Position numbers and translations under genes: made by a program. 64,000 bases of DNA, taken from Cryptosporangium minutisporangium. GTDB taxonomy: Bacteria > Actinomycetota > Actinomycetes > Mycobacteriales > Cryptosporangiaceae. The notes under the pieces were generated by a model. The model made no database searches, was not told where the DNA came from, and saw only the letters and a program-made list of their open reading frames with translations. Positions 20,858 through 42,768 of this stretch are shown in pieces; positions within the stretch are counted from its first letter, which is position 1; every line of letters begins with the position of its first letter. The stretch lies in contig NZ_BAAAYN010000018.1 of the NCBI RefSeq assembly GCF_039536245.1, forward strand, positions 124,001 to 188,000, written 5' to 3'.

Positions 20858-26362
<5,505 letters not shown>

Positions 26363-26556: not shown

Positions 26557-27420
26557 ATGAGCGGGATCGAGCGGGTGGGCGTCGTCGGCGCCGGGCTGAT
26601 GGGCTCGGGCATCGCCGAGGTGTGCGCACGAGCCGGCCTCGACGTCGTCGTCGCCGAGGTGGACGCCGGGGCACTCGAGGCCGGGCAGCGCCGGATCGAG
26701 CACTCGCTCGACCGGGGAGTGAAGGCGGGCAAGCTGACCGCCGCCGACCGGGAGGCCTCCGCCGGCCGGATCCGCTACACCACGTCGATCGACGATTTCG
26801 CCGATCGTGACCTGGTGGTCGAGGCGGTGGCCGAGGTCGAGCCGTTGAAGATCGACATCTTCGCGCAGCTGGACAAGATCGTGACGCGGCCGGACGCGAT
26901 CTTCGCGTCGAACACGTCCTCGATCCCGATCATGAAGCTCGCGATGGCGACCGCCCGGCCGACCCAGGTCATCGGCGTGCACTTCTTCAACCCGGCGCCG
27001 GTGCTCAAGCTGGTCGAGATCATCCCGTCGCTGCTCTCCTCGGACGAGACCCGGGAGCGGGTGGAGGAGCTGGCCACCGAGCGGCTGGGCAAGACCGTGG
27101 TCCGGTCCCAGGACCGGGCCGGTTTCGTCGTCAACGCGCTGCTGATCCCGTACCTGCTGTCGGCGATCCGGATGTTCGAGTCCGGCTTCGCGTCGGCCGA
27201 CGACATCGACAACGGCATGGTGCTCGGCGCGAACCACCCGATGGGCCCGTTGCGGCTGATCGACTTGATCGGCCTAGACACTACGAAGTCGGTCGCCGAG
27301 TCGATGTACGAGGAGTTCAAGGAGCCGCTGTACTCCCCGCCGCCGCTGCTGCTGCGCATGGTCGACGCCGGGTTGCTGGGGAAGAAGTCCGGCCGCGGCT
27401 TCTACGACTACAGCCGCTGA
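26557..27420 (+). CDS. fadB2: 3-hydroxybutyryl-CoA dehydrogenase
   Basis: 287 residues. N-terminal Rossmann fold with GAGLMGSGIAE, catalytic-region SNTSSIPIMKLA and the HFFNPAPVLKLVEI signature holding the active His, then the C-terminal dimerization domain with NHPMGPLRLIDLIGLD and KSGRGFYDY. NAD(P)-dependent oxidation of 3-hydroxybutyryl-CoA in fatty-acid or polyhydroxybutyrate metabolism. ATG at 26557 follows GGAAGGAG. The final 13 bp overlap the convergent flavoprotein gene tail to tail. Confidence 0.93.
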   Translation: MSGIERVGVVGAGLMGSGIAEVCARAGLDVVVAEVDAGALEAGQRRIEHSLDRGVKAGKLTAADREASAGRIRYTTSIDDFADRDLVVEAVAEVEPLKIDIFAQLDKIVTRPDAIFASNTSSIPIMKLAMATARPTQVIGVHFFNPAPVLKLVEIIPSLLSSDETRERVEELATERLGKTVVRSQDRAGFVVNALLIPYLLSAIRMFESGFASADDIDNGMVLGANHPMGPLRLIDLIGLDTTKSVAESMYEEFKEPLYSPPPLLLRMVDAGLLGKKSGRGFYDYSR

Positions 27421-29018
27421 GCGGCTGCGGCTAACACCGGCAGGCGGGTGGTGACGGTACGCAGGGGTTGCGCCGTGCCCGAGCGCGTCCAGATCTGGTC
27501 GAGTCCGCCGACGCTGATCCGGTGTGCCTGCGCCGGGTCCAGCGCCCGGAAGTCGGACCGCTGGTGCACGCCTCTGCTCTCGGTGCGGGCCAGCGCCGCG
27601 CCGTGCAGCCAACGGGCCGCGGCGAGCAGCGCGGCGGCCCGGCGCGCCCGGACGGCGTCGGCCCCGACCCCGTCGAGCGACGCGCGGACGCGCGCCCAGG
27701 TGGCGTCCAACTCGGCCAGGGAGGCGCTGAGCCGGTCGCCGTCCCGCAGGTGACCGACATCGTAGGGCAGGACCTCGGCTTGTACGGTCCGGATCACGTC
27801 GCGGTAGTCGTCGGCCGCCCCGGGGGTACCGGTCGGGCGCAGCCCGGCCGTCCCGGTCGGGCGGACCGTCCGGGAGGCGTGCAGGTCACCCTGCCGGGCC
27901 GCGAACGCAGCAGCTCCGGCTCCGGCCCAGCTGCCGGACGCGATCGCCCAGGCCGCGTTCTCCGCGCCGGTTCCCGGCGTCGCGCCGAACACGTGGTCCC
28001 GCGCTGCCACGTCGCCCGCCACGTACAGGCCGGGGACGCCGGTCGCGCAGTCGTCGCCGCGCACCAGCACTCCGCCGCTGCTCCGGACCGTGCCTTCGAG
28101 GATCACCGGGGCCTCGAACAGGTCCTCGAACGGGTTGAGGCCGTCGGCGTCGAAGGGAGCGAAGAACGCGGGCTGTGCCAGCCGCAGAGCCGTCCGCATC
28201 CGTGGGTCGGCGCGGTCGAGGCGGCAGTACACCGGTTCGGTCAGTGCGGCTTTGGCCAGCACCGACCGGCCGCGGACGCCGGTCGTACCCGGCACCGGCG
28301 AGCCGTCGGCCCGGTAGAACCGGGCCCATCGGGAGAACGCCGTGGCCAGCACCGGGTTGGGCTCGGACGTCACCGGGTGGACCGCGGTGAACTCCGTCCC
28401 GGACAGGTCCGCGCCGACCTCGACGGCGAACAAGGCCCCGTCGCCGGAGTTCACGTCGCACCCCACCGAGCGCGCCTCGAACCCGCAGCCGCCGGTGGCC
28501 AACACGACCGCTCCGGCGCGTACCTCGTAGCCGCCGCCGTTCCGACGGTGCACGCCGCGCGCGCCGGCTACCGCGCCGTCCGCGTCCACCAGCAGTTCGA
28601 GCACCGGGCTGTCGTCGAGGATGCGGACGCCACGGCGCTGCAGGCGCGACCGCTGCCACCGCAGGTGGGCCGATCCCGGGAGGGTGCGTTCTCCGGAGAC
28701 CTGTTCCCACTCGCCCAGGCGGGCGCGGACCTCCTCGACCACCCGCTCCAGCCAGACCCGGTCGGCCAGGCCGTCGCCGAGGCTCTCCCGGCGCCCGACC
28801 TCGGTCTCCTGCGCGTCCCAGTCCGCCGCCGCGTCCCACACGTCCGCGTTGCCGGCCGCTGCGGCACCGCTGGTGCCGGTGTAGGCCTTGTCCGCGAGCA
28901 CCACCGACCGGCCCGCCCGGGACGCCGCGAGTGCGGCCCAGGTTCCCGCCGCGCCGCCGCCGACCACCAGGACGTCTGCGGTCACGTGCTCGACCGGACG
29001 GTCGGTGGCGGCTGTCAT
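27408..29018 (-). CDS. FAD-dependent oxidoreductase, fumarate reductase flavoprotein family
   Basis: 536 residues. N-terminal FAD-binding ADVLVVGGGAAGTWAAL, the second FAD segment AGAVVLATGGCGFEARSVG, SGDGALFAVEVGADL, and GLYVAGDVAARDHVFGATPGTG near 330. A C-terminal helical domain is present. This is the fumarate reductase/succinate dehydrogenase/adenylylsulfate reductase flavoprotein fold. The usual iron-sulfur partner is not adjacent, so the electron acceptor and substrate are unknown. ATG at 29018. A perfect 11-bp inverted repeat lies 180 bp upstream. Confidence 0.85.
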   Translation of the reverse strand: MTAATDRPVEHVTADVLVVGGGAAGTWAALAASRAGRSVVLADKAYTGTSGAAAAGNADVWDAAADWDAQETEVGRRESLGDGLADRVWLERVVEEVRARLGEWEQVSGERTLPGSAHLRWQRSRLQRRGVRILDDSPVLELLVDADGAVAGARGVHRRNGGGYEVRAGAVVLATGGCGFEARSVGCDVNSGDGALFAVEVGADLSGTEFTAVHPVTSEPNPVLATAFSRWARFYRADGSPVPGTTGVRGRSVLAKAALTEPVYCRLDRADPRMRTALRLAQPAFFAPFDADGLNPFEDLFEAPVILEGTVRSSGGVLVRGDDCATGVPGLYVAGDVAARDHVFGATPGTGAENAAWAIASGSWAGAGAAAFAARQGDLHASRTVRPTGTAGLRPTGTPGAADDYRDVIRTVQAEVLPYDVGHLRDGDRLSASLAELDATWARVRASLDGVGADAVRARRAAALLAAARWLHGAALARTESRGVHQRSDFRALDPAQAHRISVGGLDQIWTRSGTAQPLRTVTTRLPVLAAAAQRL

Positions 29019-30032: not shown

Positions 30033-30149
30033 GCGCCTCACCGTAGCGGGGCGGGAGCCGTCGATTCTGGACGGCGCCGGATCCGGTCACCGAACTGTCG
30101 CACCGGCTCGCTAGCCTCCAGCCGTTCCGTCGTGGAGGGGAGTTGCTGG

Positions 30150-31001
30150 ATGGCTTGGTTAGCGGTGGCGGGCGGCTACGAGGTGACGCTGGACGGCGAC
30201 ACCCTCGTCTGCCGGAACGCGGCGGGGAAGACGCTGCGTTCGGTACCGAAGGCGGTCCGCGAAGATCCCGTTGTCCAGGGCCTGAAACAACTCACCGAGT
30301 GGCTGAGCCGGCACGAAACGCAGTGCCGGGCCGACGTCGAACGCTGGATGGTGCGTTCGCTCCTGGTGCCCGCCGCGCTGCTGGCCGAGGTCTGGGCCGA
30401 CGACGCGTGGGCGTCCGCCGCCCGCAACCTCGTGGTCACCACGCCCGACGGTGACCAGGTCGGTTTCCTCCGCGACGCGGGCGAGAAGGGCATCGGCATC
30501 GTCGACCTCGACGGGGAAACCGTCCGGCTCGACGCGGAGCAGCTCCTGATCCCGCACCCGGTCCTGCTCGACGACATCGACGACCTCCGTGAGTTCGCCG
30601 CCGAGCTGGAGTTCACCCAAGCCATCGACCAGCTGTTCCGCGACGTCTGGGCCCGCCCGGCCGACCTCGACCCGGCCACGACGCGGGTCTCCACCTACTC
30701 CGGCGGCCACTACGAGGAGCTGCGCCACCTCACCGCCCGGGCCGCCCAGGCCGGCTACCGCGTCCGTGGCGGGTACTCCGTGTGCCGCGTGTTCGAGAAC
30801 GGTGCGGTCGTCGAGGCACGTTCGTGGGTCGGTTCGGACGATCCGTACTACCCGACCGAGACCGGCGACCTCATCTTCACCCGGCCCGACGGGGTCGCGC
30901 TGCCGCTCGGTGAGGTGGGCCCGGTGGCCTGGTCGGAAGGCAATCGCATGGCCGCCGGCCTCTACGCCGGCCGCGTCGTGGAGAAGGAGGCCGCAGCATG
31001 A
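30150..31001 (+). CDS. stand-alone DUF4132 domain protein, first gene of the MoxR-VWA-SWIM operon
   Basis: 283 residues. The order of motifs follows the DUF4132 region of MolR/YehI: KTLRSVPKAVREDPVVQGLK, an RWMVRS helix, NLVVTTPDGDQVGF, a VRLDAEQLLIPHPVLLDD strand-helix step, then LEFTQAIDQLFRDVWAR. The C-terminal part (YRVRGGYSVCRVFENGAVVE) is beta-rich. DUF4132 in enterobacteria sits at the end of a protein four times larger, so this is a reduced stand-alone form. ATG at 30150 after GGAGGGGAG. Its stop overlaps the next start as ATGA, so translation is coupled. Molecular activity unknown. Confidence 0.8.
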   Translation: MAWLAVAGGYEVTLDGDTLVCRNAAGKTLRSVPKAVREDPVVQGLKQLTEWLSRHETQCRADVERWMVRSLLVPAALLAEVWADDAWASAARNLVVTTPDGDQVGFLRDAGEKGIGIVDLDGETVRLDAEQLLIPHPVLLDDIDDLREFAAELEFTQAIDQLFRDVWARPADLDPATTRVSTYSGGHYEELRHLTARAAQAGYRVRGGYSVCRVFENGAVVEARSWVGSDDPYYPTETGDLIFTRPDGVALPLGEVGPVAWSEGNRMAAGLYAGRVVEKEAAA

Positions 31002-34000
31002 GCGCGCCCGTCGACGCGCTGCTCGACGCGGGCGCGGTCCTACCGGCCGGCACTCCGGTCGCGCAGTCCGACACGGTGGACGCGCTGTTCACGCGCGCCT
31101 ACCGGCACCCGGTGCTGGACGACCGCAGGGTGGTCCGGCTCGTGCCGGGCACGCTGCACGCCGCCGAAGATCTCTCGATGGAGTTCCTCGGCTTCGCGAC
31201 GCCGGAGCGGTCGGTCGAGGTCGGCACGGTCCGCAGGCAGGCTCTCGGGTTCCCTGCGTGGGCGCTGGTCCACGACCCGGCCAACGGCCACCACGCGCTG
31301 GCGCTGGTCAAGGAGATCGAGCGGCTGGCCCGGATCGCGAAGTCCCGCGTCGGCCCGGCGAAAGAGGGCTTCGACGAGCTCGGCCGGCGGTTGGCCGCGG
31401 CCGTGCCACACTTCCTGCCGACCTACTACGAGGAGGCCGGGCGGGCCTTCATCGCCGCGGAGAGCCCCTCCTACGCCGCGATGATGTTCGGCAAGGCCCG
31501 CGAGGCCGAGCAGTCCTACGCCCTCGCGATCGACGAGGACCGGGAGCACGCGGTGTTCCTGGAGTTCGCACTCGCCGGCGCGCTCACCGCGAAGGCGCTC
31601 ACCGCGCACGCCCGCACCCTGGCGGCGCGCAGCGAACCCGCCGCGGCGTACGAGCGCTTCCGGCGTCTCTGCGTGGAGCGCACGCTCGGTGGGTTGGCCC
31701 CGTACGCGGGGATGGTCGCCGATCTGCGTCGGCTGGCGAAGGCGGCCGGCCTCAACCAGGCCGACGCCGACGGCGCGGTGCTCCGCGATCTGCTCGACGC
31801 GCCGACGCTGCCGAAGGCACCGGAGGCGTTCTGGAAGGCCTATCGACCGGCGCTGATCCGGCTGGCGGCCGACGACGCGGTGGTCCGCGGGCGGCTGCTC
31901 ACGTTCTTCCCCGAGCACCTCGACACCGACGCCTGGATCGACCTGCTGACCGCGGCCGGTGCGACCGAGGCGCTGGTGGCACCGGCGGGCAGCGGCGACC
32001 CGGCCGCCGAGCCCACCGACGGGGTCGCCGAGTGGTTCCACCGGTTCGCCAAGCACCGCAATTCGCGTCGCTGGCGGGCGACCAACCGGTCCACCGCGCT
32101 CTACGCGCTGCTCGAGCGGGCCGCCGACCGGATCCGGGCGGACGGTGTTCCGCTGCGGCTGGAGCAGGACTGGCAGTCCGATCTCGACCTCTACGACACC
32201 GCGCTCGCGCTCGGGCTGCCGGTGGCCGACCCGAGCGACGACTTCCAGGTGAACGTCCACCAGTGGCTCGCTGACGAGAGCGACGGGCGGCGAGACCTGG
32301 CCGCTTTCGCCGCCGACCCCCGCTTCCTCGGCGCGCTGGTGGCCGCGGCGGAGAACGGGCTGCCGCGGCGGCCCTCACCCGCGGTGGTGGAGCAGGTCCT
32401 CGGGTCCCCCGGGCTCCGGGTCGCACTCACCCACTTCCTCGACGACCTGGCCGACGCGATCGAGCGGCAAGGCCTGCCGACGCTGGAGGGACAGTTCCAG
32501 CGGCTCGACAAGGTCGTCGACGGGCGTCTGCTCGCGCTGAACCCGGCCGCCGCCGCGCGGATCCGGGCCCATGACCTGGCGCCGGTGCTCGGCCGGACGC
32601 TCCGGTCCGGGCTGGTCGACGAGTACGGCTGGCCCGCGCTCGAGCAGTACGTCACCGAGTCGGTGCCGCCGCCTCGGTCCGACGACGACGAGCAGATCAA
32701 CCAGTACGGCCAGTGGCCGCACTTCGTCCTGCGGCACGGCGCCCAGGTCGCGGTGCTCGACACCGACGGCGTGGTGCTGCGCCACACGCTCCGGATCCCG
32801 TCCGATCAGCGCGGCTATCTCTGGCTCACCGCGTTCCGCTACGTCGACGGCCAGCTCCTGGTGTCGTGGGACACCGGACCCGACCGGTCGGCGTACTGGA
32901 GCGGGACGCCCGGCGACGTGATCACCAAGCTCCCGTTCGCGGCGTGGCAGCCGGCCGACGGCTCGCTACCGCTGCCCGGCGGTGGCCGCACCGCGGGGGG
33001 CAGGCCGCTGCACGTGGGTGACCGGTCCCAGGACGTAGGTGGGCGGGTGTTCACCGACGGCCGGTCGTACTGGGTCCTCGGCGAGGACGACCAGGGCAAC
33101 AGCACTGTGTTCGAGTACGACCCGGCCACCGGCGAGCGCGGCCGGGCATCGCTGCCGGCGTTCTTCGAGGCGGATGCGGTCGACGGGGAGCGGCTCGATG
33201 CCTCCGCGAGCAGGCTGCGGATCGCGCCGCCCGGCGGCGGCGTCAGCCCGATGGGGCGCGCCGACGGTCTGGTGGGCTGGCGGGTACGCACCACGGACAA
33301 CGGCGAGTCCGTCGGCACCGGCATCGACGGACGATCGATCCGGCTCCGGACGCCGGAGGAGGGCTCGCTGACCGGCGCGGTGCGCTTCCCGGGCTCGGAC
33401 GCCGTGTTCGGTGTGGTCAGTAGGCAGGCGTGGCGCGACCACACGCTGACGATTCTGGACCGGGACGGCTTCGTGGTCTCGGTGGTAGGCGTCGGCGAGT
33501 TCCGCGACACGTTCGCGGCGGGCACGCCGCTCATGCCTGACCTGCACGGCTGGCATCATCTGCGCCCCCGGGACCTCTCCGGGTCGGCCGCGCTCCGCGC
33601 GCTCACCGACCAGCAGGCCGCGGTGCTGCTCGCCGCCGGTGCCCGCGACCACGAGGCTGCACAGCAGGCCCTGGCCGCGGAACGAGCGCTGGTGGCGAGG
33701 CCGGCCCTGATCGCCGGGCAAGCCCTGGCCGCCGGACAAGCCCAGCTCGCGGGACAAGCCGGGGTCGTCGAGGAGTGCCCCGGGGCGATCCGGGCGGCGA
33801 TCGCGGACGTGCTTCCGGCCCTCACCCATCCCGATCTGGTCAACGGCGTGGTCGGCGTGGTGGCGAAGGCCGCCGAGCGGGCCGCGCTGCTCGCCGGGCT
33901 CAGCGCCGGACTCGCGTCTGCGACGGACGGGGAGCCGCGGGCCTCGGCAGCGGCCGCCGAGGGCAAGCCCGCCGATGGACCGCTGATGGACGGCCTCGCG

Positions 34001-35923
34001 CTGCTGATCCCCCGTTGTTACAACCGCGGCAACGAGGCGGTCCGGCTGCTGACGACCGTCGGGCGCGCCCTGGTGGACGGGGTCCCTCCGCACGCGGGGG
34101 ACCTGGAGGGCGACCATGACTGGTTCAAGGCGCTCGACGTCTTCCCGGCCGCGCTCTACCGCGCGGTGTCCCCGCTGTACCGCTCGCTCGTGCTGCCGGT
34201 CGCGGTCTCGGAGCGTGAGGCGCTGCTCGAGTTCGCGGAACTGCTCGCCGATCTGGGGCTGCTGGCCCCGGGCGGTCGGCTGCGCCGCATCATCGGGACG
34301 ACCGAGACCGAGCCGGGCCCGGACCGTCTGCACGCGAACGGAAACGGCGGCCGGGTGCTGCGGCTGAGCGAGAACGAGCAGACCTTCCTCGGGCAGACCC
34401 AGTGGAGCGTCTGCCTGCTGGAGTACCAGCCGGACGGCGAGTTCGCGCCGGTGCCGGGCGTCCAGATCTCCTACGACCATTCGTTGCTCGCCGGGTTCGA
34501 CGCCGAGACGGTGCGGTCCTACGTGGCGGCGGCGCGGGAGCGCGGGCCGATCGAGTGGCGTCCGGAGCTGGTCGACGAGCTGTCCCGCGCCGCCGGGCTC
34601 AGCCGCGCCGAGGCGCTCCTGCTGCTGTTCGGCCTCGTTCAGCCCGGCGAGCCGGTGCGCGCCGCCGCCGAGGAGATCGGCATACCGGTCGCGGCTCTCG
34701 AGATCGTGAACGACGCCTGGGGCCACGGCAACAATCGGCGGGCCGCGCTGGTGGGCAGCCTGCTGCCCGCCGACCCGAGCCGGATCTGGGACGACGGCCC
34801 GGCTCTCGGCGGTGTGGCCGAGTGGTACCGGGCACGCGGTCGGCGCACGCCCGTCTCCGACGAGGTGCTCGTCGCCTTCAGCAAGGCGGGGCTGACCTGG
34901 CGACCACGCCCCCTCGACGTCGTGAACGGCCTCCGATCGCCGGAGGCGTGCGGATGGATCGCGCCGACCCGTCGGGACGCCGCCGGGCAGATCGAATCCG
35001 CAGAGGACTTCCGCAACCCCACCGCTGCCGACGTCGTCACGGTGCTGGCCAAGGCCCTGCCCTGGCTGGCCTACCACGTCCCGGTCGACGACGGGTTCCG
35101 GCAGGCGCTGCCCGAGGTGCTCCGGCTCTACCGCGCTCGGCTGTCCGAGCCGGAGTACGAGGTCTCGCTCCAGTACCTGGACGAGAAAGACTGGGCTGCG
35201 CTCGCCGACGACCTGGGAACTTCGCCGGTCGATCGGAGCGCTCCGAACGACGATCGGGTCGAACTCGGGCCCTTCGTCACGCCCGACCTGGCCGACGGCC
35301 GGCGAGTGCGCCTGCGGCCGGCGCTGATCACCGGCCCGGACGACCCGGCGCTCCGGGCGTACGAGGCCCGCGCCCAGCACTGCGACGAGATCGCTGCCCT
35401 CCGGGTGTTGCTCTCCGACTGGCTGCCCGTGCTGCTCGACGGAGCGGCCGCGATCGACCCGGCCGCCGGACCACCGCAGGACCCGAGCCGCTCGGTGCCC
35501 GACTTGGTCACCGAGGTCGCGACGGCGCTCGGCCTGAGCGCCGACGCGGCCACGCTCTACCTTCAGCTGCTCGCGTTGCCCGACCCCACCGACCGGAACG
35601 TCGCCCGCTGGACCGGGTGGAAGCCCGCTCGGCTCAAGAAGGCCCGGGCCGAGCTGGCCGCGACACCGCTGGTCACCGAGGCCAAGCGGGCACGGGCCGG
35701 GCGGACGCTGTTCCTGCCAGGTGGCTGGCTGGCGCTGAAGTCGCCGCTGCCGCCGATCGAGGCGTGGAAGAGCCCGCTGTTCGGCCTGCCGAACGGGGTG
35801 CCGACCCTCAGCCGAGTGGTCCCCCTCCACCCGGTTCCCGCCCTGTTCGCCGCCGCCTGGGCCCGGGTGCGTGGCGGCGACGAACCGCGCTTCGAAACGC
35901 TGCAGACCGGAAGGCGCCGATGA
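30998..35923 (+). CDS. 1641-residue protein of unknown function in the MoxR operon
   Basis: No catalytic motif recognised. The first 300 residues or so are helical and repeat-like (YYEEAGRAFIAAESPSYAAM, KAREAEQSYALAIDEDREHA), resembling helical solenoids. The middle (about 570-880) contains beta-propeller-like strands (YVDGQLLVSWDTGPDRSAYW, GRSYWVLGEDDQGNS, VGWRVRTTDNGESVG). An Ala/Gln-rich coiled segment follows (about 885-925; QALAAGQAQLAGQAG), then a long helical C-terminus ending in a WKPARLKKARAELAATPLV helix-turn-like piece. It is probably a scaffold or target-recognition subunit. It may correspond to the missing N-terminal bulk of MolR/YehI-type DUF4132 proteins. ATGA overlaps on both sides. 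Confidence 0.85.
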   Translation: MSAPVDALLDAGAVLPAGTPVAQSDTVDALFTRAYRHPVLDDRRVVRLVPGTLHAAEDLSMEFLGFATPERSVEVGTVRRQALGFPAWALVHDPANGHHALALVKEIERLARIAKSRVGPAKEGFDELGRRLAAAVPHFLPTYYEEAGRAFIAAESPSYAAMMFGKAREAEQSYALAIDEDREHAVFLEFALAGALTAKALTAHARTLAARSEPAAAYERFRRLCVERTLGGLAPYAGMVADLRRLAKAAGLNQADADGAVLRDLLDAPTLPKAPEAFWKAYRPALIRLAADDAVVRGRLLTFFPEHLDTDAWIDLLTAAGATEALVAPAGSGDPAAEPTDGVAEWFHRFAKHRNSRRWRATNRSTALYALLERAADRIRADGVPLRLEQDWQSDLDLYDTALALGLPVADPSDDFQVNVHQWLADESDGRRDLAAFAADPRFLGALVAAAENGLPRRPSPAVVEQVLGSPGLRVALTHFLDDLADAIERQGLPTLEGQFQRLDKVVDGRLLALNPAAAARIRAHDLAPVLGRTLRSGLVDEYGWPALEQYVTESVPPPRSDDDEQINQYGQWPHFVLRHGAQVAVLDTDGVVLRHTLRIPSDQRGYLWLTAFRYVDGQLLVSWDTGPDRSAYWSGTPGDVITKLPFAAWQPADGSLPLPGGGRTAGGRPLHVGDRSQDVGGRVFTDGRSYWVLGEDDQGNSTVFEYDPATGERGRASLPAFFEADAVDGERLDASASRLRIAPPGGGVSPMGRADGLVGWRVRTTDNGESVGTGIDGRSIRLRTPEEGSLTGAVRFPGSDAVFGVVSRQAWRDHTLTILDRDGFVVSVVGVGEFRDTFAAGTPLMPDLHGWHHLRPRDLSGSAALRALTDQQAAVLLAAGARDHEAAQQALAAERALVARPALIAGQALAAGQAQLAGQAGVVEECPGAIRAAIADVLPALTHPDLVNGVVGVVAKAAERAALLAGLSAGLASATDGEPRASAAAAEGKPADGPLMDGLALLIPRCYNRGNEAVRLLTTVGRALVDGVPPHAGDLEGDHDWFKALDVFPAALYRAVSPLYRSLVLPVAVSEREALLEFAELLADLGLLAPGGRLRRIIGTTETEPGPDRLHANGNGGRVLRLSENEQTFLGQTQWSVCLLEYQPDGEFAPVPGVQISYDHSLLAGFDAETVRSYVAAARERGPIEWRPELVDELSRAAGLSRAEALLLLFGLVQPGEPVRAAAEEIGIPVAALEIVNDAWGHGNNRRAALVGSLLPADPSRIWDDGPALGGVAEWYRARGRRTPVSDEVLVAFSKAGLTWRPRPLDVVNGLRSPEACGWIAPTRRDAAGQIESAEDFRNPTAADVVTVLAKALPWLAYHVPVDDGFRQALPEVLRLYRARLSEPEYEVSLQYLDEKDWAALADDLGTSPVDRSAPNDDRVELGPFVTPDLADGRRVRLRPALITGPDDPALRAYEARAQHCDEIAALRVLLSDWLPVLLDGAAAIDPAAGPPQDPSRSVPDLVTEVATALGLSADAATLYLQLLALPDPTDRNVARWTGWKPARLKKARAELAATPLVTEAKRARAGRTLFLPGGWLALKSPLPPIEAWKSPLFGLPNGVPTLSRVVPLHPVPALFAAAWARVRGGDEPRFETLQTGRRR

Positions 35924-37065
35924 GCACCGCGACCGACCCCGTATCCGGCGCCGCCCGGCAGGTCGACCCGGCGGAGTACACCTACGCCGAAGAGCTGGCG
36001 TTCCTCGCCCGCTACGACGGCGGCCCTCGGCCGCCGGGCTGGCGGCTGACGCCGCGCGCGGTGGTGACGTTCGTACTGGGCAGCGGCGGCGACGCCCTTC
36101 GCGTCGGCTCGGATCGCCTGGTCATCAGCGCGAAGTTCGTCGGTGACCGGGCGCTGGTGGAGCGCTGCGTGGTGACGCTCGCCGGAGAGCGCGGCCTGCT
36201 GCTCGTCGGCGAGCCCGGCACCGCGAAGTCGATGCTGTCCGAGCTGCTCGCCGCGGCGGTGAGCGGCACCAGCGAGCTCGTCGTCCAGGGCACCGCCGGA
36301 ACGACGGAGGACCACTTCCGCTACGGCTGGAACTACGCGTTGCTCCTGGCGAACGGGCCCAGCCCGGAAGCGCTGGTGCCGTCCCCGGTCCTGAGCGGAA
36401 TGCGCACCGGCGCGGTCGTGCGGATCGAGGAGCTGACCCGGTGTCTCCCCGAGGTCCAGGACGCGCTGGTCTCGATCCTCTCCGACCGGCGGATCGCGGT
36501 GCCGGAGCTGGCTGCGACCGCACACTCGAGCGTGGCCGCGGCGCCCGGCTTCACGGTCATCGCGACCGCGAACATCCGCGACCGTGGTGTCTCGGAGATG
36601 TCGGCGGCGCTCAAGCGGCGGTTCAACGTCGAGACGGTGGGTCCGATCCCGACACTCGCGGACGAGATCGCCCTGGTGAAGCGCCAGGCGACCACCACCG
36701 TCGCGCGGTCGGGAGCGTCGTTCGGCGTCGACGACGCGGTGCTGGAGGCTCTGGTGACCGCGTTCCGCGACCTGCGGTCCGGCGAGTCGGTGGAGGGCTG
36801 GCAGGTCCAGCGCCCGTCCACGGTGATGAGCACGGCCGAAGCGGTGGCGGTAGCGACCTCGCTCGCGCTGGCCGCGGCTTACTTCCCCGGCGACCGGGAC
36901 GTGCTGTCGCTCCTGCCGGGTCACCTCCGTGGGGTGGCGGCCAAGGACGACCCGGCGGACGCCGCCACGCTGCTCGGCTACTGGGACGGTGCCGTCCGAC
37001 GGCGTGCGGAGGAGGGGTCGCGGCTCTGGCGGCAGCTCTGGGAACTGCGGAATGCCGTCGGTTGA
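35920..37065 (+). CDS. MoxR-family AAA+ ATPase (YehL-like)
   Basis: 381 residues. Walker A GEPGTAKSML near residue 100, Walker B VVRIEELTRC near 170, sensor 1 TVIATANIRDRGVSEM, and arginine-rich ALKRRFNVE. The N-terminal 75 residues (YAEELAFLARYDGGPRPPGW, SAKFVGDRALVERCVVTLA) are as in the E. coli YehL branch. MoxR ATPases work with VWA-domain proteins as chaperone-like remodelling machines; here the VWA partner is the next gene. ATG at 35920 overlaps the preceding stop (ATGA). The gene overlaps the next by 14 bp. Confidence 0.93.
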   Translation: MSTATDPVSGAARQVDPAEYTYAEELAFLARYDGGPRPPGWRLTPRAVVTFVLGSGGDALRVGSDRLVISAKFVGDRALVERCVVTLAGERGLLLVGEPGTAKSMLSELLAAAVSGTSELVVQGTAGTTEDHFRYGWNYALLLANGPSPEALVPSPVLSGMRTGAVVRIEELTRCLPEVQDALVSILSDRRIAVPELAATAHSSVAAAPGFTVIATANIRDRGVSEMSAALKRRFNVETVGPIPTLADEIALVKRQATTTVARSGASFGVDDAVLEALVTAFRDLRSGESVEGWQVQRPSTVMSTAEAVAVATSLALAAAYFPGDRDVLSLLPGHLRGVAAKDDPADAATLLGYWDGAVRRRAEEGSRLWRQLWELRNAVG

Positions 37066-40000
37066 CCCAGCGGGGGCGGTCTCCGCTCTCGCGGCGCAGA
37101 CCGTGCCCTACCTGATCGGGGTACGGCACCACTCCCCCGCACTCGCCGCGGTGGTGCCCCACCTGCTCGACGAGGCGCGGCCGGACGTCGTGTTGGTCGA
37201 GCTTCCGGCGGAGTTCGCCGAGTGGTTGCCGTGGCTGGCCGATCCGGAGACCGTCGCGCCGGTGGCGCTGGCCGGTGCCGACGGCGGCGACGGGGCCCTG
37301 GCGTTCTACCCGTTCGCCGACTTCTCGCCGGAGCTCGCAGCGGTGCGGTGGGCGGCGCGGAACGGCGTCCGGGTCGTCGCCTGCGACCTCCCGCTGGTCG
37401 ATCGCGGCTGGCACCAGCGCGGGTTCGCGCCGGACTCCCCGAGCGAGGAGGCCGGGCCAGTCGAGGAGATCGGGCCGGTCGGCGGTCCGTTGCTGGCCGA
37501 CGCGCTGCGGGCAGGCAACAGCGGACGCTCCGACGACGATCTCTGGGACCGGGCCGTCGAGGCCAGGGCCCCCGGCTCGACACCGGAAGCGGTGCGGCGG
37601 GCCGCGCTGCTGGTGGGCTGGGCGTTCCGCACGGACGCGCGGCGCGGGGGCGGCGTCGACCCGATCGACCTACGCCGCGAAGAGTGGATGCGGCGCTGCG
37701 TGGCCGAGGCGCTGGCGTCCGGGCCGTGTCGGATCGCGGCCGTCGTCGGCGCGTTCCACGCCCCCGCCCTGCACCTGGATCCAGACGCACCTGCGTCTCC
37801 ACCGCCCACCACCGAGCCGGCGCCCGGCAGCGAGATCGTCACGTCGCTCGTGCCGTACACATTCGCGCTGCTCGACGAGCGGTCCGGCTATCCGGCCGGC
37901 ATCCGCGATCCGCAGTGGCAGCAGGAGGTTCTCGCCGCCGGGGGCGACGCCGCAGCCGTTCAGGACGCCGCGATCGCCGCTCTGGTCGGCATCACCGCCG
38001 AGGTCCGCGCCGCCGGCCACCCGGCCGGTCCGGGGGAAGCACGGGAGGCGGTCCAACTGGCGACAGGGCTGGCCCGGCTCCGCGACCTCCCGGCGCCCGG
38101 CCGCGGCGAGCTGGTCGAGGCGGTGCAGAGCGTCCTCGCGCAGGGTGAGGTCCTGGGGCGCGGACGGGTGGTGGCCCGGGCGATGGAGCGGGTACTGGTC
38201 GGAGAGCGTCGCGGCCGGGTGGCACCGGCGGCGCCGCGCTCGGGGCTGCGGTCCGCGGTCGAACGGGAACTGGCTGCTCTTCGGCTACCCGGGCCGGGCG
38301 AGCCCGCCCGCGACCTGCGGCTCGACCCGCTGCGCTCCGATCTCGACCGCCGCCGGGAGATCACGCTGCGGCGGCTCACCGTGTGCCGGGTGCCTTATGC
38401 GACCGAGGCGGAGGTCACCGGTGTCGGTGGTCTCGCCGGGCTGACCACGCGGTGGACCGCCGGGTGGACCCCGTCCACGGAGGCGTCCCTGGACGTCGCC
38501 GGTGTCCAGGGCGTCACGCCGGCACAGGCCGCCGAGGGCGCGCTGCGACTCCGGCTGCGCCGCCAGGTCGACGCCGGCGGGCCGACCGCGGCCGAGGTGG
38601 TCGAGGCGTTCGCCACCGCGGCCGGGTGCGCGCTGGTCGGTTTGGCAGCCGAGCGGTTGGCAACGCTGGCGCTGGTGGCACCGGCCACCGGCACGCTCCC
38701 GGAACTGCTCGACGCGCTGGCCACGATCGACCAGGTCCGTCTCGGCCACGTACCCGGGCTTGCGCCGTCGGCCCTTCCCCGGCCCGGCGACCTCGACGGG
38801 ACGGCCGAGGTGGTGCGAGCCGCCGCGGTACGTCAGCTCGACGGCCTCGCCGGCTCCACGGACGTCGCCGACGCCCGGGCCCTGGTCGCCCTCGCGCTGC
38901 GCAACGACGCCGGACTACGGCTGGCCGACGCCCTGGAGCGGTTGGCGGTCGACGGCAGTCCGCTGATCGCCGCCGCCGCGAGCGTCACGCAGGTGCTCCT
39001 CGGCAGCAAGGAGCCACCATGGCTCGGCGAGCGGATCGCGTCCTGGGTCGACAACGCGACCGACGCGGATCGGCGCCGAGTGCTGCAGGGACGGCTGACC
39101 GGCCTGCTGGCGGCGTCCAGCCCGCTGCTGGAGACCGGCGGCGCGGTGCTGGACACGCTGCTCGCGCGGATCGAGTCGCTCGCCGACGAGGAGTTCCTCG
39201 ACCGGCTGCCGGCGCTGCGGGGCGGCTTCTCGGTGCTGAGCCCGGCCGGCCGCGATCGGCTGCTCACGGTGGTGACCGACCGGCTCGGTGAGCCGTCGGC
39301 CGATATCGACGTCGTGCCCGACCCCGAGGCGTTGCTGCATCGCCTCCTCGCGGATCGCGCCGGTCGCGCGGCGGTGACGCGGTTTCACCTGCCGCTCGGC
39401 GGCGGTGCCCCAGCGGCCGAGTCCACGCCCTCGGGGCCCGCTTCGGCGGGGCTTTCGTCGGCGGGAGTCTCGTCGGGTGGATCCCCGTCGGCGGAGCCCT
39501 CGCCGGCGGGGCTTGGTTCGGCGGCCGCGCGAGGCGTCGAGGGTGACCTCGACCCGCTCGACCGGTGGCGGCTGGTGCTGGGCCGGCCCGGAGTCCGAGG
39601 CGCCCGGGCGGCACGGTATGCGAGTGCGCTCGACGAGCTGTACGGCGCGGGCCGCGGCGAAGGCGCCCAGGACGACGCCGACGCGCGCGCCGGCCGCCAG
39701 GCGTCCTACCCCACCGCCCGGGAGTGGTCCGAGGAACTCGCGGCGCTGTTCGGGCCGGGCGTCCGGGAGGAGGTGCTCGGGCGGGCGGTCGAGGCCGGCC
39801 GGACCGACGCGGCGCTGGAACTCGACCCGGGCTCAGTGCGGCCCTCCGTCGAGTTGTTGCAGACCGTGCTGTCGCTGGTCGGCGGTGTTCCGGAGGGGAC
39901 GCTCGCCCGGCTGCGGCCGCTCGTCGCCCGGCTGGTGGCCGAGCTGACGCAGCAGCTCGCGACCCGGATTCGGCCCGCGCTGACCGGCTTGGCGTCCCCG

Positions 40001-40639
40001 CGCCCGACGTACCGGCCGGGCGGGCCGCTCGACCTACCCCGGACGCTCCGGGCGAACCTGGCCACCACCCACCGCGCCGACGACGGCCGGGTGGTCGTCG
40101 TCCCGGAGCGGCCGGTGTTCCGGACCAGGGCCCGGCGCAGCGTCGACTGGCGTCTCGTGCTGGTCGTCGACGTGTCCGGCTCGATGGAGGCCTCGGTGGT
40201 CTGGTCGGCGCTGACCGCGTCCGTGCTCGCCGGCGTCCCGGCGTTGACCACGCATTTCGTCGCGTTCTCGACCGACGTCATCGACCTGTCCGACCGGGTG
40301 GACGACCCGCTCGGTCTGCTGCTCGAGGTGCGGGTCGGCGGCGGCACGCACATCGCCGCCGGACTGCGGTACGCCCGCTCGCTGGTCACCGTGCCGACCC
40401 GCACGTTGGTCGCGGTGATCAGTGACTTCGAGGAGGGGTTCGGCGTGGGTGGCCTGCTGTCGGAGGTGCGGGCCCTGGCGGAGTCGGGCTGCACGCTGCT
40501 GGGCTGCGCGAGCCTGGACGACGCCGGAAAGCCGCGGTACTCGGTACCGATCGCCGAGCGGCTGGTCGCCGCCGGTATGCCGGTCGCCGCGCTCAGCCCG
40601 CTGGAGCTGGCGCGGTGGGTCGGAGAGCACGTCCGATGA
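37052..40639 (+). CDS. DUF5682-VWA fusion (YehM-YehP-like)
   Basis: 1195 residues. The N-terminal two thirds is DUF5682: YLIGVRHHSPALAAVV, PDVVLVELPAEF, FYPFADFSPELAAVRWA and a VACDLPL strand, as in E. coli YehM. A Ser/Pro/Gly linker (about 788-828) leads to a YehP-like part ending in a von Willebrand A domain (about 1030-1195) with intact MIDAS: VVDVSGSMEAS, GGGTHIAAGL and AVISDFEEGF. In E. coli these are two genes; here they are one chain, and the low-complexity linker marks the join. The VWA part should bind metal and stimulate the MoxR ATPase. ATG at 37052 lies inside moxR. Confidence 0.88.
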   Translation: MPSVDPAGAVSALAAQTVPYLIGVRHHSPALAAVVPHLLDEARPDVVLVELPAEFAEWLPWLADPETVAPVALAGADGGDGALAFYPFADFSPELAAVRWAARNGVRVVACDLPLVDRGWHQRGFAPDSPSEEAGPVEEIGPVGGPLLADALRAGNSGRSDDDLWDRAVEARAPGSTPEAVRRAALLVGWAFRTDARRGGGVDPIDLRREEWMRRCVAEALASGPCRIAAVVGAFHAPALHLDPDAPASPPPTTEPAPGSEIVTSLVPYTFALLDERSGYPAGIRDPQWQQEVLAAGGDAAAVQDAAIAALVGITAEVRAAGHPAGPGEAREAVQLATGLARLRDLPAPGRGELVEAVQSVLAQGEVLGRGRVVARAMERVLVGERRGRVAPAAPRSGLRSAVERELAALRLPGPGEPARDLRLDPLRSDLDRRREITLRRLTVCRVPYATEAEVTGVGGLAGLTTRWTAGWTPSTEASLDVAGVQGVTPAQAAEGALRLRLRRQVDAGGPTAAEVVEAFATAAGCALVGLAAERLATLALVAPATGTLPELLDALATIDQVRLGHVPGLAPSALPRPGDLDGTAEVVRAAAVRQLDGLAGSTDVADARALVALALRNDAGLRLADALERLAVDGSPLIAAAASVTQVLLGSKEPPWLGERIASWVDNATDADRRRVLQGRLTGLLAASSPLLETGGAVLDTLLARIESLADEEFLDRLPALRGGFSVLSPAGRDRLLTVVTDRLGEPSADIDVVPDPEALLHRLLADRAGRAAVTRFHLPLGGGAPAAESTPSGPASAGLSSAGVSSGGSPSAEPSPAGLGSAAARGVEGDLDPLDRWRLVLGRPGVRGARAARYASALDELYGAGRGEGAQDDADARAGRQASYPTAREWSEELAALFGPGVREEVLGRAVEAGRTDAALELDPGSVRPSVELLQTVLSLVGGVPEGTLARLRPLVARLVAELTQQLATRIRPALTGLASPRPTYRPGGPLDLPRTLRANLATTHRADDGRVVVVPERPVFRTRARRSVDWRLVLVVDVSGSMEASVVWSALTASVLAGVPALTTHFVAFSTDVIDLSDRVDDPLGLLLEVRVGGGTHIAAGLRYARSLVTVPTRTLVAVISDFEEGFGVGGLLSEVRALAESGCTLLGCASLDDAGKPRYSVPIAERLVAAGMPVAALSPLELARWVGEHVR

Positions 40640-42657
40640 GCGGCTCACTACCCCCGGTCGACGCGCTGGTCCTGGTCGACGCCGTCGACGCGCTGCCCGG
40701 ACGGCTCCGGAAGCGGCTGGACGCGGCGGTGGCGAAGGTGTCCGGCTGGGCGGTGGACGCCGACGGGCCGGAGTGGACGGTGACCGTCGACGAGTCGACG
40801 GCCGTCACCCTGCACACGGTCGACGGTGTGGTGCGCGCGGCGACCGACGCGCGGTGCACGTGCCTGCTCGCCCCGGCCTGTCTGCACCGTGCCGCCGTGC
40901 TGTCGGCCGCCCCGGTGGCGGCCCCCGTCGACGAAGTCGGCCCGGCCGAGGAGGGCCCTACCGAGGTTGGGCTAGCCGAAACGACGCCGGCTGAAGCCGC
41001 GCCAGCCGAAGCAGGGCGGCCTTCAACCGGGCCTGCCGACGCCACGCCAGCGGAGACCGGGCGCGCTTCGACCGGGTCGGCCGCGGAGCCGACTCCGGGT
41101 CTGACCGCGGTCCAGCGCGCCGCGGCGGACGCCGTCTGGAAGGCGGCCGGCGCCGTCCTCACGGCAGGCGTCACCGGCAGCGGCGTCGTGCTCCGCGCCT
41201 CGCTCCTGCGGGCCGCCCACGATGCCCGCGCGCACGGCCTTCACCACCTGGCCGCCGGTGCGCGCCAAGTGGCCACCCATCTGCAGGACGCCCGGTCCGA
41301 CGCTCCCCACTACCGGCTGGGCACGGTGACCGACGACCTGCGCGCCCTGCTCCTGCTCGCCCATCGGCTCCGCGATCCCGCGCTCCCGAACGGCGACGTG
41401 GCACCTCTGCTCGGCACCGCCCGTCGCGAGTACACCGCACGGGGCAGTCTGCGGCTCGTCGGCCTCTGCGCCGTGCCGGTGCTGGCCGGCTCCGGTCACG
41501 CGGGCACCGCCACCTACGTGGCCGACCGGGACGGTGTTCTGTGGCTGGTCGCCGACATCTACCCCGGCGACGTCCGGCGCGCGGCGGCTACCGCCCAGGC
41601 CGGCATCCCGCTCGGCGGCGGACTGCTGAGCCACCGGGAACTGGCCCGCGCGGGGCTGCTGGTCACCGGAGCCACCGCGAGTGAATCCCGGCAGCTCGGG
41701 GCCGGCCGCAGCGTCCGTGCGGTGCGGGCCGGCGGAGCCGCCTGGCACGAGGCGCCGCTCGCCGAGCTCTGGGACGAGCCGATCGACGCCCAGCTCGACC
41801 GGGCGTTCGCCGCGCTGGAGCTTCCGGTTCAGGACCGGCCGGCCGGTGCCGACCTGCTGTTCCTCCGGGCAGAGATCGTCGGTTCGGCGGCCGACGGCGT
41901 GCTCGCGCTCACCTCCGACGGGCAGCTGGTCACGCTCGCGATCACGATCGACAGCCCGGAGTTGGCTTACCGCGACAACCTGCGGGTGCTCGCGGACGCA
42001 AGCGGCGTCCAGCTCGACGTGATCGGCCGGCCGGATCCGGCCCGGCCAGGGCTGCTGCACGCCCTCGCGGTGGCGCCGCACCGCGCCGCCGTGAGCGCCG
42101 CAGTCGCCGCGTCCGATCCGGCGGAGGCTGCCGACTTCGTACTCGACACACCGGAAATCCGGCTACCGGCCGCCTGGGGCGGCCACGTCGACCTGGGCTA
42201 CGACCGCCTGCACCGCAGCATGATCACCAGCGCGGGAACCGGGGCCGCCGGGCCGTACCCGGCCGACCCCGCGCCGACCTCGGACGCCCCGGCGACCGCG
42301 CCCGACAACCCGGCGCCCGCCTCGGGCGACCCCGCGCCGCTCACCGGCGACCCGGTTCTGCGCCTGCTCCGACGGCACCTCGATCGCACGGTCGAGGGGG
42401 GCCGGGCGGTTCAGGCGTTCGCCCGCTCCGACCAGCAGCTCCTGCGGACGACCCGCTGGGAGACCGGGGCCGACTTGCTCACCGCGCTCAACGCCGCCGC
42501 GCGACCGGGCCGCCGCGACACGTTCGGCCGACTCGCCGACGACGAGGGCCGACGCTTCGTCGTCGCCTGGTTGGCCGCGGCCGTGTACGAGCAGGCAGCG
42601 GCGTGGGCGCTCAGCCGCGCGGCCTGGTCACCCACGGGCGGCCTCGACGAGAGCTGA
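40636..42657 (+). CDS. SWIM zinc-finger protein (YehQ-like)
   Basis: 673 residues. A SWIM finger CTCLLAPACLH (Cys-x-Cys...Cys-x-His, residues about 75-85) lies near the N-terminus, as in YehQ. An Ala/Pro/Thr/Glu-rich linker (about 100-155) precedes a helical and beta domain of about 350 residues, a second low-complexity linker (about 540-575) and a C-terminal helical domain. SWIM fingers bind DNA or proteins. ATG at 40636 overlaps the preceding stop (ATGA); last gene of the five-gene operon. The two linkers are coded by repetitive GC-rich DNA. Confidence 0.85.
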   Translation: MSGSLPPVDALVLVDAVDALPGRLRKRLDAAVAKVSGWAVDADGPEWTVTVDESTAVTLHTVDGVVRAATDARCTCLLAPACLHRAAVLSAAPVAAPVDEVGPAEEGPTEVGLAETTPAEAAPAEAGRPSTGPADATPAETGRASTGSAAEPTPGLTAVQRAAADAVWKAAGAVLTAGVTGSGVVLRASLLRAAHDARAHGLHHLAAGARQVATHLQDARSDAPHYRLGTVTDDLRALLLLAHRLRDPALPNGDVAPLLGTARREYTARGSLRLVGLCAVPVLAGSGHAGTATYVADRDGVLWLVADIYPGDVRRAAATAQAGIPLGGGLLSHRELARAGLLVTGATASESRQLGAGRSVRAVRAGGAAWHEAPLAELWDEPIDAQLDRAFAALELPVQDRPAGADLLFLRAEIVGSAADGVLALTSDGQLVTLAITIDSPELAYRDNLRVLADASGVQLDVIGRPDPARPGLLHALAVAPHRAAVSAAVAASDPAEAADFVLDTPEIRLPAAWGGHVDLGYDRLHRSMITSAGTGAAGPYPADPAPTSDAPATAPDNPAPASGDPAPLTGDPVLRLLRRHLDRTVEGGRAVQAFARSDQQLLRTTRWETGADLLTALNAAARPGRRDTFGRLADDEGRRFVVAWLAAAVYEQAAAWALSRAAWSPTGGLDES

Positions 42658-42695
42658 GGGCGGGCACACGTCAGCCCGGGGCGAGCCTCAACCCC

Positions 42696-42750
42696 GAGCG
42701 AGCCCCGCCCCGAGCGAGCCCCGCCCCGAGCGAGCCCCGCCCCGAGCGGG
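42696..42750. repeat. 16-bp tandem repeat between convergent genes
   Basis: Three exact copies of GAGCGAGCCCCGCCCC (42696-42711, 42712-42727, 42728-42743) and a partial fourth lie between the SWIM gene and the convergent epimerase gene. Slippage-type array; no hairpin potential noticed. Confidence 0.8.
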
Positions 42751-42768
42751 CCGCACTTCGAACGAGCC

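Follow-up and report, generated by a model that had tools for sequence, protein, structure and literature searches.

What is made by an actinomycete operon that joins a MoxR ATPase and a VWA domain to DUF5682, to a stand-alone DUF4132 protein, to a SWIM zinc-finger protein and to a giant protein without a described family? We asked this for a locus at 30150–42657 of a 64,000-nucleotide stretch of the Cryptosporangium minutisporangium genome (contig NZ_BAAAYN010000018.1, positions 124,001 to 188,000), which we call the window. Its five genes, all on the forward strand, are named A to E in 5' to 3' order and are given in window coordinates. Our analysis points to a single ATP-driven complex for protein remodelling, accessory and cytosolic, in which a MoxR-VWA motor would be coupled to a TIKI-like hydrolase and B would act as the specificity and nucleic-acid-contacting subunit, with use in an inducible stress or conflict response; we give this reading an even chance. 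Sequence comparison supports its steps on domain content, motif integrity, gene linkage, A-B fusion and gain or loss of the locus.

Neighboring genes overlap by 4 nucleotides (A/B, ATGA), 4 (B/C), 14 (C/D) and 4 (D/E). Gene A (30150–31001, 283 residues) is the DUF4132 protein (PF13569, 101 bits against a Pfam cut-off of 27; domain at residues 26–203, 30225–30758). Gene B (30998–35923, 1641 residues) has no family match in Pfam, NCBIfam or PADLOC, and its family was built in this analysis. Gene C (35920–37065, 381 residues) encodes an AAA+ ATPase of the MoxR group (AAA_5, 118 bits) with an intact Walker A motif (GEPGTAKS, residues 97–104, 36208–36231) and sensor-1 Asn. Gene D (37052–40639, 1195 residues) matches DUF5682 over the entire profile (PF18934, 662 bits, profile positions 1–727 of 727) as well as VWA_CoxE (PF05762, 204 bits; residues 969–1190, 39956–40621), the latter with an intact metal-ion-dependent adhesion site (MIDAS, DxSxS..T..D). 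Gene E (40636–42657, 673 residues) carries the SWIM motif CxCx5CxH (residues 74–84, 40855–40887), which is kept in 10 of 10 clade members. A preliminary description had listed five overlapping genes with these domains, and our coordinates, overlaps and Pfam profiles agree with it: DUF4132, DUF5682 and VWA_CoxE score above cut-off, while the SWIM profile stays slightly below (16.7 bits against 19.6) with the motif itself intact. Its account of D also stands, as the protein runs through a Ser/Pro/Gly/Ala-rich linker (about residues 786–835, 39407–39556) into the VWA domain, and holds DUF5682, the YehP N-terminal region and VWA, equivalent to a fusion of YehM and YehP. The highest 19-residue Kyte-Doolittle mean across the five proteins is 1.64, and because none of them contains a strongly hydrophobic segment the set is probably cytosolic.

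Are the five genes a unit? A single-sequence query with B recovered no relatives from genome contigs, and an alignment query was needed to find them. In a survey of 198 genomes drawn evenly across the class (threshold for B homologues, E ≤ 0.001), B occurs in 16 genomes, 11 of which hold the operon, the window's included. One of these 11 operon loci, L050, lies on a contig that ends before the expected position of E (L-numbers denote loci and G-numbers the genomes compared, G000 being the window's own). Run against 84,980 species genomes, the B alignment returned 550 relatives. The best 80 were examined as named loci, and these come from Micromonosporaceae, Pseudonocardiaceae, Streptomycetaceae, Catenulispora and one metagenome-assembled genome. 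Sixty-nine of the 80 are not interrupted by a contig end, and 68 of these show the order A-B-C-D-E on one strand, with DUF5682 and VWA in one frame as D (L150 stands apart in our gene-order table solely through the sorting of overlapping frames). The sole exception, L141, has A and B only. Since order and fusion recur in 68 of 69 loci, they cannot be put down to chance. A comparison of flanks across seven genera revealed no gene common to different genera, save one weak Saccharothrix-Umezawaea case, and eight Streptomyces loci likewise have no flanking gene in common. The conserved unit therefore consists of the five genes.

The window's genus defines the edges of this unit. B is present in three of its four genomes, and in G307 and G308 the operon has the same neighbors as in the window. 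In the fourth, G309, the epimerase and methyltransferase genes on either side of the window's operon are immediate neighbors, and nothing of the five genes lies between them. The segment absent from that site corresponds to 30042–42768 of the window, and the left edge of the empty site is formed by an S-adenosyl methyltransferase gene (PF04672, 29247–30041, reverse strand). Other copies reside on large Streptomyces plasmids; a Streptomyces atratus plasmid record lists the same order (DUF4132, 'DNA-binding protein', AAA ATPase, DUF5682, hypothetical), and this copy adjoins an IS110 transposase. The operon is a sharply bounded five-gene cassette, carried by many soil actinomycetes and missing from some. 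In G307 (L223, 8024–12981) two open frames cover B, and the break between them, at about residue 900–925, is either real or a sequencing error.

The members of the cassette diverge to different extents. Mean pairwise identities, computed over 67 loci, are 66% for A, 49% for B, 82% for C, 63% for DUF5682, 76% for the VWA part and 51% for E, which makes B the fastest-evolving of the five. In Actinosynnema pretiosum (L133, 4213–21530) three full-length B copies, 46–53% identical, stand in tandem between a single A and a single C, D and E. Because B diverges fast and is triplicated, we infer that it serves as the recognition or client subunit and that C and the VWA domain form a constant motor.

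A structural model of B (AlphaFold, 62 sequences, residues 442–1641; mean predicted local distance difference test (pLDDT) score 85) shows helices, a predicted β-propeller at about residues 567–836 (32696–33505), further helices and a predicted winged helix at about residues 1501–1572 (35498–35713). Almost every Foldseek match to the propeller region is itself a propeller (probability up to 1.00), and the best Z in VIA is 8.0. The winged helix is basic (isoelectric point 10.1), matches HTH_36 in 9 of 31 homologues (best E 0.0058, below the curated cut-off) and belongs, together with residues 51–200, to the most conserved stretches of B. It probably contacts nucleic acid, and the SWIM finger of E, taken with it, suggests such contact for the system.

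The model of A is confident (pLDDT 93), and its C-terminal domain (residues 177–277, 30678–30980) resembles YugN-like proteins on structure comparison (2pww, Z 8.7, root mean square deviation 2.5 over 94 residues), a likeness of fold that carries no function with it. Residues 91–137 weakly match a small SH3/KOW-like barrel. We saw no catalytic signature in A, and Foldseek returned matches at chance level only. Searches of PDB sequences with A, B, the DUF5682 head and the B C-terminus likewise gave no significant match. A and B are fused in nature in L055, L057 and partly in L056, with DUF4132 N-terminal and B-like sequence in the same protein. These fusions have no MoxR, DUF5682 or SWIM neighbors of the window type, and in L055 and L056 the central propeller part of B is missing from the profile match. 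Outside the operon, L051, L052, L053, L054, L056 and L058 hold B homologues that are distant or partial, and the 20 kb examined contain no YehL-type MoxR. The preliminary description had looked to the giant protein always keeping company with the other four genes. This holds for nearly all close orthologues; B-like proteins lacking C, D and E do exist (L141 and the distant L051–L058).

How does this cassette relate to the yeh genes, which in E. coli K-12 run in the order yehI, L, M, P, Q? Both operons combine a YehL-type MoxR, DUF5682, a CoxE-type VWA domain, a SWIM protein and DUF4132. They differ in that YehI is one protein with a C-terminal DUF4132 domain, YehM and YehP are separate, the yeh locus has no counterpart of B, and the two fall into different clades. 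The preliminary description had taken the locus for the actinomycete form of yeh, a view we abandon: complete yehI-L-M-P-Q operons with the E. coli gene order occur in actinomycetes as well (L091–L094), and the window sits in a clade of its own with 100/100 support. In L091–L094 the YehI orthologues are collinear with YehI (34–36% identity over 530–620 residues) and are followed by MoxR, DUF5682, VWA and a YehQ orthologue.

It had also been proposed that B is the N-terminal bulk of YehI, split off in a rearranged yeh operon. A is indeed homologous to the C-terminal domain of YehI (hhalign probability 85%, E 6e-6), and C, D and E have yeh counterparts. Yet a split of YehI into A and B is highly improbable, as the domain order is reversed: DUF4132 lies at residues 954–1138 of 1210 in YehI, whereas it is upstream of B in the window and N-terminal in the fusions L055 and L057. 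In addition, profile-profile comparison of B with YehI gave no match, both profiles being shallow, and a remote relation of the two is, on these grounds, only disfavored. Finally, true YehI orthologues coexist in actinomycetes, in the separate yehI-L-M-P-Q operon.

DUF5682 is found in 45 of the 198 genomes of the class survey, and we built trees for MoxR, DUF5682 and VWA, the MoxR tree sampling MoxR proteins from DUF5682 loci only. The window proteins form clade III in each tree (100/100), and E. coli YehL, YehM and YehP group with L091–L096 in clade II. Clades II and III are neighbors in the MoxR tree (98/90), where no single branch strictly sets clade II apart, and weakly so in the VWA tree (93/79). 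Clade III is probably sister to clade II; the tree program flags the branches that separate the clades as long. C belongs to the YehL subfamily, joining clade II with E. coli YehL at 98/90 and having Walker A and sensor 1 intact, and E, a distant YehQ homologue, is connected to YehQ via the intermediate L095. Clade I consists of an actinomycete MoxR-DUF5682-VWA triad (L059, L060, L103–L107). It shares the three core domains with the window system and differs from it in having no DUF4132 match at the locus, no B homologue and DUF5682 and VWA mostly as separate genes. One genome, such as G018, can hold both a clade I triad and a window-type system.

In a fourth DUF5682 clade (L097–L101) the VWA gene precedes MoxR and DUF5682. 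A partial, low-scoring DUF5682 match at a contig end of the window's own genome (L102, G000:C32) may belong there. The Walker B region of MoxR reads R-[IVFL]-E-E-x-T-R in 34 of 34 sequences from all four DUF5682 clades, with Glu-Glu replacing the usual Asp-Glu.

Could DUF5682 be an enzyme? TIKI, TraB, ChaN and EreA proteins form one superfamily of metal-dependent hydrolases. An alignment of DUF5682 heads (residues 22–240 of D, 37115–37771) from all four clades contains 18 invariant columns, which include H26 H27, E50, R209 E210 M213 and G233..H236 (D numbering) and reproduce in order the motif set H..E..R(E/N)xxM/W..GxxH of TIKI/TraB/ChaN hydrolases. The TraB-family protein YbaP from E. coli has the same motif order (G..H / E / R(N)xxW / G..H) at similar spacing, with 24 residues from H to E in DUF5682 and 26 in YbaP, and 27 and 24, respectively, from R to the last H. 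An hmmscan of 30 DUF5682 heads against Pfam at E ≤ 10 brought up no more than five families other than DUF5682 itself, two of which are members of the TIKI superfamily: ChaN in 4 of the 30 heads (best E 0.0054) and TraB in 1 of 30 (E 0.014), all sub-threshold. In hhalign, DUF5682 and a TraB alignment match with the motifs in register (E 0.0016, probability 16%), and unrelated control alignments give E 0.17 or worse. We consider it quite likely that the head is TIKI-like, and DUF5682 is probably a metal-dependent hydrolase, either peptidase or esterase. It departs from the superfamily in that no family profile scores above cut-off, in a long extra C-terminal part and in its tie to MoxR-VWA.

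The sequence evidence and models are consistent with the following mechanism. As is typical of MoxR proteins, C would assemble into a hexameric ring, onto which the VWA domain of D would dock. Because one polypeptide holds both the VWA domain and the putative hydrolase head, ATP-driven movement should gate the hydrolase: motion of the VWA domain would position or release the activity of the TIKI/TraB/ChaN-like head, a candidate metal-dependent peptidase or esterase. B, with its conserved N-terminus, its variable helical and propeller middle and the basic winged helix at its C-terminus, may be the recognition and scaffold subunit. A would clamp to B, and the two, fused in nature, may constitute the recognition arm; E is a putative zinc-binding adaptor. 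Ring assembly, VWA docking, hydrolase activity, nucleic-acid contact and physiological role are steps we infer. Filamentous actinomycetes would most likely use the complex in an inducible response to stress or conflict, with B setting the recognition target.

Precedents for such a motor come from other MoxR-VWA systems. According to PMC7159879 (section 8) and PMC3893208, MoxR ATPases work in concert with VWA cofactors, where the VWA domain captures a client peptide and the ATPase ring passes on a conformational change, and the pairs studied to date mostly mature specific complexes. RavA-ViaA from E. coli resembles the window system in encoding a MoxR ATPase and a VWA cofactor together; it belongs to another MoxR subfamily, consists of two proteins with known clients and has no DUF5682, DUF4132 or SWIM component. 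By analogy with RavA-ViaA, CoxD-CoxE and NorQ-NorD, C and the VWA domain of D might be a dedicated chaperone that matures one housekeeping enzyme or metalloprotein, with B as client or scaffold and no conflict role. The existence of B-like proteins without C, D and E would suit a client, and older genetic reports, cited in PMC4245954 and PMC8533742, connect molybdate use with molR at the E. coli locus, a lead only. We nevertheless regard such a maturation machine as unlikely: the cassette is patchy, is gained or lost exactly at one site and, unlike a housekeeping factor, has no shared genomic context. No metabolic gene is consistently linked to it, and the Deinococcus radiodurans study (PMC8533742) saw no change in the molybdate genes examined there.

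A second precedent is provided by the MoxR-vWA ternary conflict systems of Kaur et al. 2020 (PMC7159879), which are enriched in multicellular bacteria. They share with the window system MoxR, VWA and a large extra component, and a β-propeller is present. In their β-propeller subsystem, however, the propeller is fused to VWA, whereas in the window it lies in the separate giant protein B. The bpMoxR profile (PF20030) reaches 22.6 bits against a cut-off of 27, over 49 residues, and the window proteins carry none of the signatures of the described VMAP, iSTAND, FtsH or β-propeller ternary systems. PMC7159879 makes no mention of DUF4132, DUF5682, SWIM or Yeh, and our literature search found no paper with DUF5682, nor one with MoxR and DUF4132 together. 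The window system is distinct both from E. coli yeh and from the published ternary systems.

Might it be a strict anti-phage or conflict system of this ternary kind, with B recognizing the invader and the D hydrolase as the effector that the complex releases? The rapid divergence and triplication of B, the cassette-like gain and loss, the plasmid copies beside an IS110 transposase and the occurrence in multicellular actinomycetes would all fit. We remain doubtful, as neither a PADLOC match nor a ternary signature was found. Several observations also weigh against the broader reading of a remodelling complex used in stress or conflict. PADLOC 2.0.0 reported no component match, apart from one insignificant hit (E 0.032), a phage collection contained no B homologue, and the operon's neighbors in the window are ordinary genes; a defense role therefore has no direct support. 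The TIKI assignment relies on sub-threshold matches (the hhalign probability of 16% among them) and on motif order, and comparison with EreA-type esterases gave no significant match, the two best local matches falling at motifs 1 and 3. B and E are large proteins, and divergence could reflect relaxed constraint instead of recognition. In Actinokineospora diospyrosa (L141, 9114–14713) A and B are present, and C, D and E are absent within 10 kb downstream.

A role of the remodelling complex in stress or conflict is favored nonetheless because of the cassette behavior, the patchy distribution, the divergence and triplication of B and the precedent of the ternary systems (PMC7159879). More tentatively, the locus may represent an undescribed conflict or stress machine whose MoxR-VWA motor controls a TIKI-like hydrolase, with fast-evolving B as an interchangeable sensor and the same motor-hydrolase core in all four DUF5682 clades, E. 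coli YehM included.

New in this analysis are the predicted propeller and basic winged helix of B, its fast evolution and triplication, the hydrolase-like motifs of DUF5682 and the exact empty site in a genus-mate. We know of no function for the yeh genes of E. coli, and a TIKI-like hydrolase under a MoxR-VWA motor, if true, provides a concrete enzymatic hypothesis for YehM and its relatives. The window system also offers a natural experiment: one core is combined with a giant subunit that diverges fast and is open to triplication, and within a single genus the cassette is cleanly present or absent at one site.

Long antisense open reading frames within B (for example 32966–35830, 954 residues) were dropped as the usual high-GC artefact. 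A promoter and terminator scan of the locus found none, a scan that is uninformative for an actinomycete of 74% GC. Left of the operon, on the reverse strand, lie a gene for an FAD-dependent oxidoreductase (27408–29018) and one for an 1834-residue protein (20858–26362) that combines a Ser/Thr kinase, an AAA_16 ATPase, TPR-like and GAF domains and a C-terminal GGDEF domain, an unusual kinase-to-cyclic-di-GMP architecture.

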